DNA of 61,739 nt, from assembly GCF_007858435.1 (NCBI RefSeq), contig NZ_VIGW01000015.1:1-61739 (forward strand), read 5' to 3'. Within the stretch, counting starts at the first letter, position 1; every line of letters begins with the position of its first letter. Of the stretch, positions 3,029-15,505 are shown piece by piece. The notes under the pieces were generated by a model, which was given only the letters and a program-made list of their open reading frames with translations, had not been told where the DNA came from and ran no database searches. This DNA comes from Tsukamurella asaccharolytica (GTDB lineage: Bacteria > Actinomycetota > Actinomycetes > Mycobacteriales > Mycobacteriaceae). Position numbers and translations under genes: made by a program.

Positions 3029-3709
3029 TCAGCCGCCCGCGGACTCCCGGAGGACGCGCCGGACATCCTCCTCGAACCCCACCACGTGCTCGAGAGCGCG
3101 GGCCTCGGCCGCCTGCACATCGCCCGCGGCGATCGCTCGGAGCAACGCCGCATGTTCCCGGACGTGCGCGACCAGGCTCTCCAGGCGATCGAGGAACAGA
3201 CACCAGATCCGAGTGGCGTGCGCGTCCTGACAGATCAGGACGTCTTCGAGGAAGGGATTCCCACTCGCGCGATAGATCCGCCGGTGCAGCTGCACATCGA
3301 GCAGGAGGATGTCGCGCCGGGACGAGGCCTGGTCGATACCCTCGACATCGTCGGCGAGGGCGAGGAGCTCCTCCCCGTCCTCAGGACCGGAGTTGGCGGC
3401 GGCCAAGCCGGCGGCCAAGGGTTCGAGCTGTTTCCGGATGGTCGAGATGTGGCTGAGGTCGGCGATGTCCACCCCGGTGGCGAACGTCCCGCGGCGGGGA
3501 TACGCCACCACCAGCCGGTCCCGCTCGAGGCGCTTGAGCGCCTCGCGCACGGGGGTCCGGCCGAATCCGAGCTCGGCGGCGAGCCGCTCGTCACTGATCG
3601 GGTCACCCGGGGCGATGTCGAGCAGCATCAATCGCTCGCAGATGTGCTCGTAGGCGACCTGCGCGTTCGTCGCCGCCGTCCCCGCATCAGAGATACTCAC
3701 GACCGTCAT
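3029..3709 (-). CDS. GntR-family regulator, FadR subfamily (FCD domain)
   Basis: A 226-residue DNA-binding repressor with an N-terminal winged helix (about residues 15-80; ISDERLAAELGFGRTPVREA is the recognition helix) and a C-terminal all-helical FCD effector domain. The FCD metal ligands look intact: the D-x3-H of LLDVQLHRRIY, the His of REHAALL and the His of ALEHVVG. I chose the ATG at 3709 (AGGA 7 nt upstream) rather than the ATG at 3769. It is divergent from soxB, and the palindrome TGATATATCA lies between them, so it is the natural candidate for control of the sox operon and itself. The same palindrome precedes purU and the BCCT transporter. The effector is unknown; a pathway intermediate such as sarcosine or dimethylglycine is a guess. 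Confidence 0.88.
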   Translation of the reverse strand: MTVVSISDAGTAATNAQVAYEHICERLMLLDIAPGDPISDERLAAELGFGRTPVREALKRLERDRLVVAYPRRGTFATGVDIADLSHISTIRKQLEPLAAGLAAANSGPEDGEELLALADDVEGIDQASSRRDILLLDVQLHRRIYRASGNPFLEDVLICQDAHATRIWCLFLDRLESLVAHVREHAALLRAIAAGDVQAAEARALEHVVGFEEDVRRVLRESAGG

Positions 3710-3755
3710 CCATCGATCCTCGCGTGCATCGTTCGCGGCCGGTTCCGCGAATCCA

Positions 3756-3785
3756 TTGACCCGTTCCACCTCGACACTCTACGCT
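3756..3785 (+). promoter_or_regulatory. Putative sox operon promoter
   Basis: TTGACC (3756-3761), an 18-bp spacer, and TACGCT (3780-3785). The layout matches the candidate promoters before purU and the BCCT transporter, each followed by the same palindrome. Not tested experimentally. Confidence 0.6.
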
Positions 3786-10678: not shown

Positions 10679-12730
10679 TCAGATGGCGCTGCAGAGGCGA
10701 TACGCGTCGAAGATCGCCGCGTGGATGTTCCGGCTGGCCACCGCGTCGCCGATCCGGTACAGCGCATAGGTCCCGGCGGGGTTGGCGTCGGCGGGCTGCG
10801 GGGCGCGGGCCAGCAGTTCCTTCACCGCGATCTGACCGAGGTTGACGGAACCGGGCAGCAGCACGTCGTAGAGCTCCGGGTCGGGCGCCGTGCCCCGCTC
10901 GATCACGACCGCGTCCACGATCCGTTCGGTGACCGCCGTGGCGCCCTCGACCTGCAGGCGGGCCCGCAGCCGGCCGTCGTGACGCTCGATGGACTGCAGG
11001 CGGTGCAGCACACCCGTCGGGACCCCGTGGTCGGCCATCAGCGCGAAGTACTGTCCGGCGGGAGAGGCGCCGACGTCGGGCGCCACGCTGCGCTCCGGGG
11101 TCGCGTACTCGACGGTGGCGGCCGTCCGCAGCAACGCCTCCACCGCGTCCATCGCCTGGTGGCCGCCGAGGTCGTCGTAGACCAGGACGTCGCCACCCAC
11201 CTTCCGGCTGCCCGCGATGATGTCCCAGGAGTCGATGGCCAGCTCGTCTCCCGGGATGCCCAGGGTCGTGTCGGGGACGCCGCCGGTGGCCACGATCACC
11301 ACGTCGACGCCGTCGGTCAGGGACTCCAGCTCGTCCGCGTCCACGTAATGGTTGCGGTGCAGCGTCACCCCCAGCCGCTTGCACTCGGCGACCCGCCAGT
11401 CGACGATGCCGATCAGATCGCGGCGGCGCTCCGAGATCGCGGCCAGGGCCACCTGTCCCCCGAACCGGTCGGCCGCCTCGTACAGGTCCACCGCGTGCCC
11501 GCGCTCGGCCAGCACGCGCGCGGCCTCCAAGCCGGCGGGGCCGCCGCCGATCACCGCGGCCCGCCCGGCCCGCTCCGCTGCGACAGGGGTGATCCGCTGG
11601 GGCAGCTGCGTCTCCCGGCCGGTGGCCGGGTTGTGGATGCACAGCGCGGAGCCGTTGGTGTAGATGCCGTCGATGCACATACTGGCGCCCACGCACGGCC
11701 GGATCCGGTCGGCGTGGCCGTCGCGGGTCTTGTTCGGCAGGTCGGGATCCGCCATCAGGGCGCGCACCATGCCGACCATGTCGAGCAGTCCCTCCGTGAT
11801 CGCGTACCGGGCGGTCGCGACGTCGGCGATCCGGGACGAGTGCATCACCGGCACGGACAGTTGCCGGCGGATTCTCCCGGCGAACTCCAGGTGCGGACTC
11901 GCCGGGGTGAACATCGGCGGAATCACCTTGGCGAGCTGGTAGTCGGTGTCGGCATTGCCGCGGTTGACGGAGAAGAAGTCCACCCCGGCCTCGGTCATCG
12001 CCGCGGCGACGGCGAGCGCGTCCGCCTCCACCATGCCGGAGTCGTCGGGCAGCAGCTCGTCGAAGGACATCCGGACACCCACGATGAACTCCTCGCCGAC
12101 CGCCGCCCGCACCGCGCGGATCACCTCCAGCGGGAACCGCATCCGGTTCTCCAGGGAGCCGCCGTACTCGTCGGTGCGGCGGTTGTGCCGCGGCGAGAGA
12201 AAGCTGTCGAGCAGGTGGCCGGTGTACGCGGAGATCTCCACCCCGTCGAGTCCCCCCGCACGGCAGCGCGCGGCCGTGTCCGCGAAGTCGCGCGCGATCC
12301 GCTGCAGGTCGCGGGCATCGGCGACGCGGGAGAAGGCGCGGTGCGCGGGCTCGCGGGTGCCCGAGGCGGACAGCGCGGGAATCCAGTCGTGGGTGTAATT
12401 GTCGGTGCGGTGGCCCATGTGGGTGAGCTGGGTCATCACCGCAGCGCCCTGCTCGTGCACGTCGTCGGCGAGCGACCGCAGCAGCGGCACCGCCTCGTCG
12501 CGCCACAGCTGCAGGTTGCCGAACGGTGGCATCGAATCCGGGCTGACCAGGGCGCTACCGCCGATCATGGACAGTGCGACACCGCCGCGGGCCTTCTCCC
12601 GGTGATAGGCGCGGTAGCGGTCCTTGGGCAGGCCGTCCTCGCTGTACGCGGGCTCGTGCGAGGTGCTCACGATCCGGTTTCGCAGCACCAGGTTCTTCAG
12701 GGTGAACGGGGTGAACAGCGGGTCACTCAT
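10679..12730 (-). CDS. dgcA: Dimethylglycine demethylase-like flavoprotein (TMADH/DgcA family)
   Basis: A 683-residue protein of the trimethylamine dehydrogenase family: an N-terminal old-yellow-enzyme TIM barrel binding FMN (residues 1-340), an iron-sulfur segment (346-364), and C-terminal FAD/NAD-type domains (VIGGGPAGLEAARVL, about 393-407). The barrel shows SAYTGHLLDSFLSPRHNRRTDEYGGSLENR. There is no cysteine at the position used by TMADH for covalent FMN (SHEPAYSE instead). The cluster motif is C346-x5-C352-x11-C364, with Ala349 where TMADH has a fourth cysteine. Beside sarcosine oxidase and a betaine-type Rieske oxygenase, the best guess is dimethylglycine to sarcosine; N-methylproline demethylase is the alternative. 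No dgcB or ETF partner is in the window. The start ATG has AAAGGAG upstream. Confidence 0.8.
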   Translation of the reverse strand: MSDPLFTPFTLKNLVLRNRIVSTSHEPAYSEDGLPKDRYRAYHREKARGGVALSMIGGSALVSPDSMPPFGNLQLWRDEAVPLLRSLADDVHEQGAAVMTQLTHMGHRTDNYTHDWIPALSASGTREPAHRAFSRVADARDLQRIARDFADTAARCRAGGLDGVEISAYTGHLLDSFLSPRHNRRTDEYGGSLENRMRFPLEVIRAVRAAVGEEFIVGVRMSFDELLPDDSGMVEADALAVAAAMTEAGVDFFSVNRGNADTDYQLAKVIPPMFTPASPHLEFAGRIRRQLSVPVMHSSRIADVATARYAITEGLLDMVGMVRALMADPDLPNKTRDGHADRIRPCVGASMCIDGIYTNGSALCIHNPATGRETQLPQRITPVAAERAGRAAVIGGGPAGLEAARVLAERGHAVDLYEAADRFGGQVALAAISERRRDLIGIVDWRVAECKRLGVTLHRNHYVDADELESLTDGVDVVIVATGGVPDTTLGIPGDELAIDSWDIIAGSRKVGGDVLVYDDLGGHQAMDAVEALLRTAATVEYATPERSVAPDVGASPAGQYFALMADHGVPTGVLHRLQSIERHDGRLRARLQVEGATAVTERIVDAVVIERGTAPDPELYDVLLPGSVNLGQIAVKELLARAPQPADANPAGTYALYRIGDAVASRNIHAAIFDAYRLCSAI

Positions 12731-12893
12731 GGTGGACGGACTCCTTTCGCCGCGGTGCGCGTGGCATCGGTTCCGGCGCGGCCCGGGCCGCGGGCGCACC
12801 GTTCACCAACAATGGGTTATGCGCATCACTCTCGGCTACGATGAGCGGCCTGACCGATCCGGTGCGATTCACAGGAAGTGACGGCCTTCGACG

Positions 12894-14498
12894 ATGTCTG
12901 AGCGAGCGGTGCCGCTGCCTCCGCAGGACCGGGAGGCGCTCCGTCGAGTTGCCCGGTCCCGCCAGGTCACGCACGGTGCGGGCGTCCGTGCCCGGGTGGT
13001 CCTGGACTGCGCCGAGGTGGGCGTGACGGAGGCCGCGAGGCGGGCCTCGGTCAGTGCCACCTCGGCGAATCGGTGGTGGCGCACGTACCGGGAGTCGGGG
13101 ATCGAAGCCCTCCTCGAGGTCCGGCCGTCCCGCGGCCGCCCGACGGTGACCACCGCGGACCTGCGCGCCGTACTCACCCGGGTGCTCGCGCCGCCGCCTG
13201 CGGGCCGGGCCACATGGACGACCCGGGCGATCGCCGAGGCGACCGGGGTGAGCCAGGCGACGGTGAGCCGGATCCGGCGGCGACGGTTCCCGGTCGCCGA
13301 ACCCGGGACGGACGTCGGGCTGCTGGTGACCTACGTCGACATCGGTCCGGCGGGGTGCGCGCTGGGCTATCGCAGGGAGGGCGCGGCGGCGCCGTCCGCC
13401 GTCGCGACGGAGGCCGTGGAGACCGTGCTGTGCGCCGCGCTCTCCCGCCGGCCGGTGGCCGACGAGGCGCCTCCAGCCCCGGCGGCCGGGACTCCCGCGG
13501 CGCTGCTCCGCCGCGCCGAGCGGCACGTGGACCTGCACACCCCCATGACCCTGGTCGTGGACGTGCCCCTGGATGCCGCCGCGGACGCCTGGGCCGCGCG
13601 CCATCCGACGGTGACCCTCCTCTCCCGGCCCGGCGCAGCCTGGCTCGCCCAACTGCATCCGCTGGCGGCGCTGATAACGCCGGCTCAGCTGCGGGAGTTG
13701 CGCGAGGTGCGGTCCAGGATCCGCGCGGCCGCGGCGAGCGGTGATCCCTGGGAGTTCCAGTGGGCCCGGGACCTGGCGGAACCGGCCCCGTTCGCACCGC
13801 CGCCGGCCCACGCTCCGCCGGTGCCGCCCCCCGCCGCCGCGCCGCTGCGCGCCTCCGTCCACGACATCTCGGCGACGGTCGCGGCGCTGTGCTCAGCCCT
13901 CGCGGCGGGGTCGTTGAGCCCTGGAGAACCGGTCTCGGTGCGCCGGACGTCGGAGCAGGCGGGCCTGAGCCGGCACCGCGCGGCGGAGGTCATGACGTAT
14001 CTCGCGGAGCAGGCGATCCTGGACCGCGTCGACGGGCGTTTCCGCCTCCCCGCGCCCGCGCCGCGGGACGTCATCGAGACCTACACGGCGCGCGGACTGC
14101 TCGGGACCGCGGTGGTGCGACGCATGGCGTCGGCGCGGACGGCGCCGCCCGATCGGGTGGACGTGCTGCTGGCCCGGATCGTGCGGTGCGCCCGGGACCA
14201 CCGGCCCGCGGAGGCGTACGCGCTGGACATGGACCTGCAGGACGAGATCGCGCTGGCATCCGGGATGCCTCGGATCAGCTGGATGTTCGCCGCGCTCACC
14301 GCGCAGGTGCGGCTGTTCATCGCCGCCCTGGGGCTGGACTACCGGTACCCCACCGACGAGATCGTCGCCGACGACCAGCGGATCATCGACGCGATTCGCG
14401 AGGGGGATCCGGATCGGGCCGTGGACGCGTGGCGCACCAAGGTCGACAACTGCGTGCGGTACATGCTGGCCCAGCTCCCCCCGCCGCCCCGCGGCTGA
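12894..14498 (+). CDS. Fusion regulator: decayed IS630-type transposase plus GntR/FCD module
   Basis: A 534-residue chimera. Residues 1-135 hold two helix-turn-helix units (about 41-68 and 107-131) laid out as in IS630-family transposases. Residues 140-293 keep the outline of the DDE fold: Asp149 in VTYVDIG, Asp223 in LVVDVPL, then WAARHPTV, PGAAWLAQ, LITPAQLREL and WEFQWARD. In IS630 enzymes a catalytic Glu lies where this protein has His255, so it should not transpose. A proline-rich linker (296-318) leads to a GntR-like winged helix (320-386) and an FCD-like domain (388-525). The FCD histidines appear replaced: Gln449 and Lys516, plus Gln for the middle one. No terminal inverted repeats are evident. 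It is divergent from dgcA (163-bp gap with a TACGAT box at 12837-12842) and 140 bp upstream of purU. Role inferred: regulator of this island. Confidence 0.75.
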   Translation: MSERAVPLPPQDREALRRVARSRQVTHGAGVRARVVLDCAEVGVTEAARRASVSATSANRWWRTYRESGIEALLEVRPSRGRPTVTTADLRAVLTRVLAPPPAGRATWTTRAIAEATGVSQATVSRIRRRRFPVAEPGTDVGLLVTYVDIGPAGCALGYRREGAAAPSAVATEAVETVLCAALSRRPVADEAPPAPAAGTPAALLRRAERHVDLHTPMTLVVDVPLDAAADAWAARHPTVTLLSRPGAAWLAQLHPLAALITPAQLRELREVRSRIRAAAASGDPWEFQWARDLAEPAPFAPPPAHAPPVPPPAAAPLRASVHDISATVAALCSALAAGSLSPGEPVSVRRTSEQAGLSRHRAAEVMTYLAEQAILDRVDGRFRLPAPAPRDVIETYTARGLLGTAVVRRMASARTAPPDRVDVLLARIVRCARDHRPAEAYALDMDLQDEIALASGMPRISWMFAALTAQVRLFIAALGLDYRYPTDEIVADDQRIIDAIREGDPDRAVDAWRTKVDNCVRYMLAQLPPPPRG

Positions 14499-14521
14499 TT
14501 CGAGGAATCCGCACGCACCCC

Positions 14522-14550
14522 TTGACCTCGCGATCCGTCACCCCTAGCCT
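14522..14550 (+). promoter_or_regulatory. Putative purU-glyA-sdaA promoter
   Basis: TTGACC (14522-14527), a 17-bp spacer and TAGCCT (14545-14550), about 90 bp before the purU start. The architecture matches the sox and transporter promoters, including the palindrome downstream. Confidence 0.6.
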
Positions 14551-14561
14551 GGCATCATCAC

Positions 14562-14571
14562 TGATATATCA
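14562..14571. promoter_or_regulatory. Palindromic operator TGATATATCA, copy 2
   Basis: A perfect 10-bp palindrome beginning 12 bp after the -10 box of the purU promoter, covering or just following the expected start point. Identical to the copies before soxB and the BCCT transporter. Confidence 0.7.
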
Positions 14572-14638
14572 CTTTGAGTTCAGTGAGCGGCCAGCCGTCT
14601 CGGCAGCTGCGACAAGTCCGGACGGCAGGAAGTTCACC

Positions 14639-15505
14639 GTGATCCCCAGCTCCCGAACCGCGCAGGCGTTCACCCTCACTCTGCGGTGCGCCGAACGTCC
14701 GGGAATCGTGCACGCCGTCACCACCTTCCTGCTGACCCACGGCTGCGACATCACCGAGCACCAGCAGTTCGACGACCTGCCCGGCGCCAGCCTGTACCTC
14801 CGGACGGCGTTCCTCTCCGAAGGCGCGACGACGGCGGAGGCGCTCGCCGCCGCGTTCGCCCCGATCGCGGACGACTACGGCATGGACTTCCGCATCACCG
14901 ACTCCCGCTCTCCGCGGATCCTGGTGATGGTCTCCCGGCTCAGCCACTGCCTCAACGACCTGATCTACCGCTGGCGGGCCGGGAACCTGGGTGGCGAGTT
15001 GGTGGCGGTGGTGTCCAATCACGAGGACCTGCGGCCGATGGCCGAGGCGGCGGGACTGCCGTACGTGCACGTGCCGGTGAGCGCGACGACCAAGCCCGAG
15101 GCCGAGGCCCGGCTCTTCGCCCTGATCGACGAGTACTCCGCCGACCTCGTGGTGCTGGCGCGCTACATGCAGGTGCTCTCCGACGACGCCTGCGCCGCGC
15201 TCGCCGGCCGCGCCATCAACATCCATCACTCCTTCCTGCCCGGATTCAAGGGCGCCAAGCCGTACCACCAGGCCTTCGACCGCGGGGTCAAGCTGATCGG
15301 CGCCACCGCGCACTACGTGACCCCCGACCTCGACGAGGGTCCGATCATCGAGCAGGAGGTCCTGCGGATCGACCACTCGTACACACCGGACCGGCTCGCC
15401 ACCGCCGGCCGCGACGCCGAGGCGATGGTGCTCTCGCGCGCCGTGCGCTGGCACTGCGAGCAGCGGGTCCTGCTGGGCGGCCACGGCACCGTCGTCTTCA
15501 CCTGA
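14639..15505 (+). CDS. purU: Formyltetrahydrofolate deformylase
   Basis: PurU hydrolyses 10-formyl-THF to formate and THF, regenerating free THF for sarcosine oxidase. The 288-residue protein has an N-terminal ACT domain ([19 protein letters not shown]) and a C-terminal formyltransferase domain with [20 protein letters not shown] and the active-site aspartate in [12 protein letters not shown]. The start is GTG at 14639 with AGGA 7 nt upstream. It leads the group purU-glyA-sdaA on the plus strand. Confidence 0.93.

Follow-up and report, generated by a model that had tools for sequence, protein, structure and literature searches.

How does a transposase come to form one polypeptide with the winged helix and the sensor domain of a metabolic regulator, and what could such a protein do in the cell? 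The question is raised by a gene of Tsukamurella asaccharolytica at positions 12894..14498 (+ strand) of the window, that is, of the whole stretch of 61,739 nucleotides of contig NZ_VIGW01000015.1 analysed here. A preliminary description took this gene for a domesticated IS630-type transposase fused to a GntR/FCD regulator. The answer that we hold to be probable is that an IS630 element was turned into a ligand-responsive transcription factor, an autoregulating repressor whose operator derives from the repeat at the end of the element (TIR).

Architecture of the fusion protein

The gene is an ATG-initiated open reading frame of 534 amino acids, present in a single copy in the host genome (4.1 Mb, 81 contigs), and it does join transposase-type helix-turn-helix (HTH) units to a winged helix and an FCD domain within one conserved protein, as the preliminary description had it. 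The N-terminal part contains an IS630-type paired HTH (residues 32-127; 12987..13274, +), where HTH_29 (residues 32-84), HTH_32 (58-127), HTH_23 and HTH_28 of Pfam all match at or above their cut-offs. Next come a relic of the IS630 DDE (RNase H-like) catalytic domain (residues about 140-292; 13311..13769, +), a Pro/Ala-rich linker (13770..13853, +), a GntR-type winged helix (13854..14057, +) and an FCD sensor domain (14076..14438, +). The DDE outline is invisible to curated profiles, because the NCBIfam IS630 model matches residues 32-130 alone, at 51.5 bits against a cut-off of 100, and no DDE family of Pfam matches the window protein at E-values up to 1. Curated DDE profiles likewise gave no match in the fusions that were scanned.

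Homology to IS630 transposases and decay of the catalytic triad

The homology is recovered by profiles made from the fusions themselves. A profile of 12 fusions aligns from position 6 to about 302 with the IS630 transposases of loci L087, L072, L057 and L054, at 130-142 bits. An HTH-free core profile (residues 140-292, 21 fusion rows), made to exclude a signal from the HTHs alone, retrieves 46 non-fusion frames among 4136 open reading frames at E-values up to 0.01, the best at 3e-20; this count leaves out the fusions themselves, the window's own copy and the piece from genome G043, and the profile columns come from an alignment that also holds IS630 rows, which may help slightly. All 46 frames sit in loci fetched for IS630-type matches; 40 of them carry the paired HTH as well, and the remaining six are short. 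A core profile from 12 rows of the window's family only still reaches 7e-10. Separate profile checks of the two halves, as proposed in the preliminary description, thus return IS630 cores for residues 140-292 and FCD (residues 395-515, Pfam, 9e-17) for the C-terminal half.

The AlphaFold model of residues 1-294 (pLDDT 88) has an order of strands and helices compatible with an RNase H-like core. A Foldseek search with this N-terminal model returned nothing under an E-value of 0.001; the best six matches are Tn7 TnsB and CAST transpososome chains (E-values 5e-3 to 2.5e-2, low TM-scores), and the VIA-align rows cover mostly the HTH part.

In the columns of the catalytic triad, all seven IS630 rows have D, D, E, and none of the 30 fusion rows does: the first Asp is present in 5, the second in 16 and the Glu in 3. 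The corresponding residues of the window protein are R160, D223 and H255. The earlier assignment of Asp223, and of His255 to the position of the Glu, agrees with the alignment; that of Asp149 as the first catalytic residue does not, given that Asp149 falls in the column of the 'LYLDPP' Asp of IS630 and Arg160 in that of the 'VDEKSQ' Asp, which we take to be the first catalytic Asp of IS630 transposases. The three fusions L111, L112 and L114, which appear to branch early, carry by this alignment the least decayed triads. Mariner-type transposases can use a D, D, D triad, which L111 and L112 have, and L114 retains its first D and its E; these three need not, therefore, be inactive.

In a tree of 20 fusions, 45 IS630 rows and 8 rows from a distinct degenerate lineage, which leaves out L119-L121 and L140-L146, one branch (95/92; 94% of bootstrap trees) divides the fusions from the IS630 rows. 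This topology, with a long-branch warning for L114, L039 and the joins of the L036 and L037 groups, is compatible with a single origin of the fusions.

The separate lineage (L062, L063, L064, L068, L069, L103, L104 and L105) is an observation in its own right. Its members are IS630-like frames of 333-431 amino acids without FCD that form one clade (100/100) in two genera, and the second catalytic Asp is replaced (CHG for LDN) in the rows viewed. It is possibly another domesticated transposase.

Distribution and selection

A scan of genome contigs found full-length homologues, 63-64% identical, in four genomes, those of Mycobacterium aquaticum, two other Mycobacterium species and Mycolicibacterium brisbanense, and the full-length fusion is also present in 22 further fetched loci, including other genera and families of the order. 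The fusion is therefore no assembly join of two genes, an outcome that the preliminary description had named as fatal to its reading. Within the genus of the window, the fusion was found in one of 16 genomes, the window's own. The family yielded 6 of 401 genomes including the window's, one of which (G289) has three copies; in an additional one (G043), the gene is split across two contig ends. The order yielded 9 of 397 genomes including the window's, and 394 genomes of the class added one more fusion, L119, and a more degenerate relative, L120, which L121 from the family search resembles. Two further searches covered the family of G492 (10 of 297 genomes, six of them new) and the genus of G371 (3 of 59; one new, without its N-terminus). 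The distribution is patchy. At the level of family, order and class, no more than three or four candidates were scored in each genome, which makes the counts lower bounds.

Comparison of the four Mycobacterium orthologues gives dN/dS values of 0.12 for the HTH part (residues 1-134), 0.25 for the DDE relic, 0.10 for the winged helix and 0.09 for FCD, so that all parts are under purifying selection.

These data bear on the reading of the gene as a still mobile or recently inserted IS630 copy, or as an assembly or frameshift artefact. The IS630 homology itself, the D, D, D triads of two relatives and the fusion gene of L102, which is broken by a stop, might point that way; against this stand the occurrence of the fusion in many independent genomes, the loss of D, D, E from every fusion row, the single copy and the purifying selection. 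In addition, of 19 inverted pairs listed in the region 12600-14700 of the window none resembles a TIR, and hence the gene has no IS630-like TIR pair around it; scanning with the TIR matrix described below gives no strong site in this region either. For the window this reading is already contradicted, and we give it almost no credence. Exaptation of an IS630 transposase, as first proposed from the sequence, is supported by the profile homology along the full length of the transposase, the absence of D, D, E from all 30 rows, the purifying selection, and the TIR relics of relatives and the gene neighbourhood described below. The absence of flanking inverted repeats noted in the preliminary description holds for the window; relatives retain TIR relics on both sides of the transposase part.

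Relics of the left TIR upstream of the gene in relatives

Among the actinobacterial IS630 elements examined, many have CTAGTGTCCTGAGTC(A/G)nnAATTC-like repeats at their ends, and the TIR core TGAGTC at these ends resembles a site at the fusion loci. Of 22 loci, 13 contain TGANTCA in the 150 bp that precede the fusion gene, where 0.30 would be expected, and the motif ranks best of 64 palindromes of the same form; a typical upstream TIR-like site reads CTGAGTCAGAAGT.

A matrix of the inner 15 bases of the TIR was trained on 29 distinct repeats from IS630 elements only. The repeats come from 24 of 41 IS630-type loci, chosen for a visible CTAG-type repeat, and were kept by a regular expression with the core TG[AGC]G[TC]C; the other loci, some of which have other ends (such as L006, L033, L098 and L099), were left out. 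Stretches of 8-17 kb, 22 kb in the case of the window, were scanned on both strands. In 9 of 22 loci (L040, L041, L037, L043, L044, L112, L113, L114 and L119), the top-scoring site anywhere in the locus falls within the 165 bp upstream of the fusion gene, and the upstream site of L111 is the second best of its locus. Because the matrices were run after TGAGTCA had already been seen in both the fusion and the IS630 sets, column-shuffled and mirror matrices served as controls. Shuffled matrices place their top site upstream in a mean of 0.63 loci (maximum 5 in 300) and the mirror matrix in 1; for rank 5 or better, the real matrix scores 12 loci, the shuffled ones a mean of 2.39 (maximum 8) and the mirror 5. 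The full 23-base matrix has its best site upstream in only 3 of 22 loci (L040, L112 and L113).

These counts are subject to several qualifications. The match of L119 begins at family position 40, and its site may fall inside the reading frame; without L119, the count is 8 of 21. The rows are not independent, with clusters formed by the window and L002-L005, by L036/L042, by L037/L043/L044, by L111-L113 and by L115-L118; counted by cluster, the top-ranked site is upstream in 6 of 10. In seven loci obtained later, the upstream rank is 1 in L140 and L146, between 2 and 4 in four others and 20 in the last; because the N-terminus of L146 is missing, the region scanned there is not truly upstream, and in L141 the best-scoring upstream site differs from the TGAGTCA present there.

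In the window and its closest relatives, L002-L005, the matrix does not pick the upstream site, which ranks 75, 8, 10, 7 and 59; to judge from the letters at this position, the site has drifted in the window and its closest Mycobacterium kin. It reads TGATTCAC[AC]GGAAAGT in L002-L005. The candidate operator of the window is GATTCACAGGAAGT (12866..12879, +), the diverged positional counterpart of the TGA[G/T]TCA of the relatives and of the IS630 TIR core, which the TIR matrix does not score. The genome contains no second exact copy of this site, and its seven sites with one mismatch pointed to no regulon.

Two observations stand apart from this site. L002-L005 share a GTGAT-N4-ATCAC palindrome, which lies between the divergent genes some 60-80 bases ahead of the start of the fusion gene. 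Winged-helix sites usually have this form, and the palindrome is possibly such a site. At L102 (11199-11348), close to the fusion gene that a stop interrupts, two strong TIR-like sites of 21.0 and 17.8 bits stand in inverted orientation with about 135 bases between them. They lie where another frame, which has an FCD-like match, begins, and the pair resembles a short non-autonomous IS630 remnant.

Relics of the right TIR in the linker of some relatives

The IS630 elements themselves point to a route by which the two halves could have been joined. In 12 of the 20 IS630 open reading frames listed, the C-terminus is D-S-x-x (mostly ...INDSGH), encoded by the right TIR, with the TAG at the TIR end as the stop codon; among the rest, L054, L055, L079 and L087 were read in the wrong frame, the frame of L018 is cut by the end of its contig, and three have SGAxH-TAG as their end. 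Since at least 12 of these 20 frames stop at the TAG of the right TIR, fusion to a downstream gene is possible by a single change.

In some fusions, the right TIR is found between the core and the winged helix, antisense and in frame. An antisense linker site is the best of its locus in 5 of 28 loci, namely L036, L042 and L111 of the initial 21 and L141 and L142 of the 7 later ones; it scores 23.2 bits in L036 and L042 and 14.9 bits in L111, and that of L114 is the second best of its locus. The motif rule misplaced the linker of L113 in the first scan of 21 loci, and its site was given by separate displays. In 17 of the 28 loci, no antisense linker site ranks above 27th, and no trace of the right TIR is visible in the Pro/Ala linker of the window. 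A linker tripeptide N/T/S/K-D-S or NGS, similar to the transposase C-terminus, is found in 11 of the 28 loci (TSDS, TNDS, VNDS, NNDS, IKDS, ITDS and INGS), these being the loci that the linker display covered as having the motif. A right TIR in the linker suggests birth of the fusion by loss of the terminal stop and read-through into a neighbouring gntR/FCD gene.

L036 and L042, closely similar paralogues of one genome (G289), combine a high-scoring right TIR within the coding region with a weak left site. Transposases of the IS630 superfamily join two ends, and the 23.2-bit relics of this pair are what favours an activator or dual regulator that would bridge two sites, either two TIR relics or a TIR and a winged-helix site, and loop the divergent promoter in the manner of an inactive synaptic complex. 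With no trace of a right end in the window, we regard such a bridging protein as improbable.

The GntR/FCD half

The fold of the C-terminal half matches FCD regulators over residues 317-532, with McbR, TM0439, VanR/AlkR and DhdR as the closest structures. At two ligand columns of FCD, where metal-type FCD domains have histidine, all 30 fusion rows have glutamine and lysine (Q449 and K516 in the window), which makes it unlikely that the pocket holds a metal.

The winged helix is less uniform. In the window, it matches the Pfam GntR model at 15.5 bits, or 18.2 when the C-terminal half is scanned alone, against a cut-off of 27, and it is similarly weak in L002, L040, L041 and L042 (17-24 bits); in L037, L111, L112, L114 and L116, it is intact (46-66 bits). 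The IS630-type HTHs are above cut-off in all ten proteins compared for GntR strength. DNA binding is therefore more likely to reside in the transposase HTHs. The two independent DNA-binding parts of the preliminary description hold as anatomy, with the qualification that the GntR winged helix falls below cut-off in the window and its nearer kin.

Could the protein nevertheless be an ordinary GntR/FCD repressor, in which the winged helix binds DNA, the transposase part serves as a scaffold or dimerisation arm and the TGAnTCA operator is a chance resemblance? The strong constraint on the winged helix and FCD (dN/dS 0.10 and 0.09), the several members with an intact GntR domain and the GTGAT-N4-ATCAC palindrome of the Mycobacterium intergenic regions all fit this alternative. 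Opposed to it are the dN/dS of 0.12 in the HTH part, the retention of the IS630 HTHs where GntR is weak in the window clade and, in 9 of 22 loci, the match of the upstream site to a TIR matrix that was trained independently. On balance, we judge the ordinary repressor unlikely, if the most credible of the alternatives, and prefer a repressor that binds through its transposase HTHs.

Gene neighbourhood

The neighbours of the gene are consistent with the betaine-catabolic island that the preliminary description had recognized. Divergent from the fusion gene lies its putative target, a gene for a DgcA-like flavin oxidoreductase (10679..12730, -), which is assigned by OYE/FadH-type matches below curated cut-offs and by synteny; its nearest solved kin include 2,4-dienoyl-CoA reductase and the trimethylamine and histamine dehydrogenases. 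Downstream lies purU, for formyltetrahydrofolate deformylase (14639..15505, +; TIGR00655 above cut-off). The surrounding genes encode a BCCT transporter (nearest model betaine, below cut-off), a GbcA-like oxygenase and a ferredoxin-reductase-type protein (both below cut-off), an IclR-type regulator, L-serine ammonia-lyase, serine hydroxymethyltransferase, a metallo-beta-lactamase-fold protein, S-(hydroxymethyl)mycothiol dehydrogenase and SoxG- and SoxA-type proteins. The island would thus, from its predicted gene content, encode a route from betaine to pyruvate. A separate GntR/FCD-type regulator is located at the edge of the same island (3029-3769), and relatives of it occur near L040, L111 and L102.

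The search for the same fusion near dgcA in other Mycobacteriales, as suggested at the outset, was productive: a DgcA-like gene is present in 19 of 33 fetched loci (the window, 13 of 25 and 5 of the 7 later ones), a count in which L038 and L039 hold two pieces of one gene. In 13 loci (the window, L002-L005, L041, L115-L118, L140, L141 and L145), the DgcA-like gene lies next to the fusion gene and is divergent from it, and in L002 and L041 it is followed by an MFS transporter. In 14 of 33 loci, the fetched stretch contains no DgcA-like gene, and the regulatory target is therefore not constant. In the four of these 14 loci whose neighbours were scanned, the divergent neighbour is an MFS transporter (below cut-off; L042, L044 and L112) or an aminobutyraldehyde-type dehydrogenase (L144). 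Given such neighbours, the predicted targets are likely to function in the uptake and demethylation of N-methylated compounds.

Proposed origin and mode of action

The architecture, the homology, the broken triad, the selection, the TIR relics of the relatives and the gene context have been computed here; from these, we infer DNA binding, the sign of regulation, the ligand and the oligomeric state. The scenario would begin with an IS630 copy that landed in frame upstream of a gntR/FCD gene. Loss of the terminal TAG stop of the element would let the transposase read through the right TIR into the regulator, and the new gene would keep the transposase promoter and the left TIR as its own promoter. 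The transposase HTHs, with their existing specificity for the TIR, would become the DNA-binding part of the repressor; the DDE core would decay to a scaffold and, in the window clade, the GntR winged helix would decay as well.

The resulting protein, as a dimer or a higher oligomer, would bind the TIR-derived site within the short stretch between the divergent genes and repress its own gene together with the divergent DgcA-like and transport genes; binding of a betaine-type compound or a downstream N-methyl metabolite to FCD would relieve the repression. A transposase that binds its own end beside its promoter has autorepression built in, and the fusion regulator would inherit this property from the ancestral transposase.

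A bolder version holds that the whole IS630 element became a regulator gene, with the left TIR as the promoter-operator, the right TIR as the in-frame linker, the HTHs as the binding part and FCD as the metabolite gate. The fusions would then be a family of ligand-gated, dead DDE transposases, possibly with a synapsis-type loop in L036/L042. We put this version at slightly short of an even chance.

Relation to known systems and implications

The fusion shares with the IS630 family transposases (IS630-Tc1-mariner superfamily) the paired HTHs, the order of the core domain, the W and F-x-W motifs and the TIR core TGAGTC of the element ends; it differs from them in lacking the D, D, E triad and the end stop and in carrying a winged helix and FCD, and the window additionally lacks a TIR pair. 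With the FadR/VanR (FCD) regulators of the GntR type, it has in common a winged helix followed by FCD, the usual order, whereas a transposase of about 295 residues stands in front and the winged helix is weak in the window clade.

For animals it is established that regulators have captured DNA-binding domains of transposases, and host genes there have acquired transposase HTHs in host-transposase fusions and in the Pax paired domain. In PMC12062965, Tc1/mariner HTHs in animal F-box genes are an instance of capture of the DNA-binding part of a transposase by a host gene. Unlike these animal captures, the fusion is bacterial, would have been made by read-through of a terminal stop and carries a small-molecule sensor domain. 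The TldR proteins, which derive from TnpB, share with it the conversion of a bacterial transposon nuclease into a transcription factor. They are, according to PMC13418256, RNA-guided transcription factors. As proteins they are unrelated to the fusion, whereas the fusion is a DDE transposase with protein-DNA specificity. Ner/SfsB and antitoxin-derived regulators exemplify the recruitment of DNA-binding proteins of mobile elements for host regulation in the passages of PMC8987985 considered here; these passages derive them from regulators or antitoxins and name no DDE transposase source.

The open-access literature, the extent of our search, yielded no account of a bacterial DDE transposase turned into a metabolite-sensing regulator, and none of the fusion architecture, reports on betaine regulators included. 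The impression that this architecture was undescribed accordingly stands within that literature.

The fusion family is of interest because the likely steps of its formation can be traced in the sequences: loss of the end stop, retention of the TIR as an operator, decay of the triad and later decay of the older DNA-binding domain. It could thereby serve as a model of how a new transcription factor gains its specificity and its first binding site at once. For the actinobacteria that carry it, the fusion protein is a candidate regulator of betaine catabolism.
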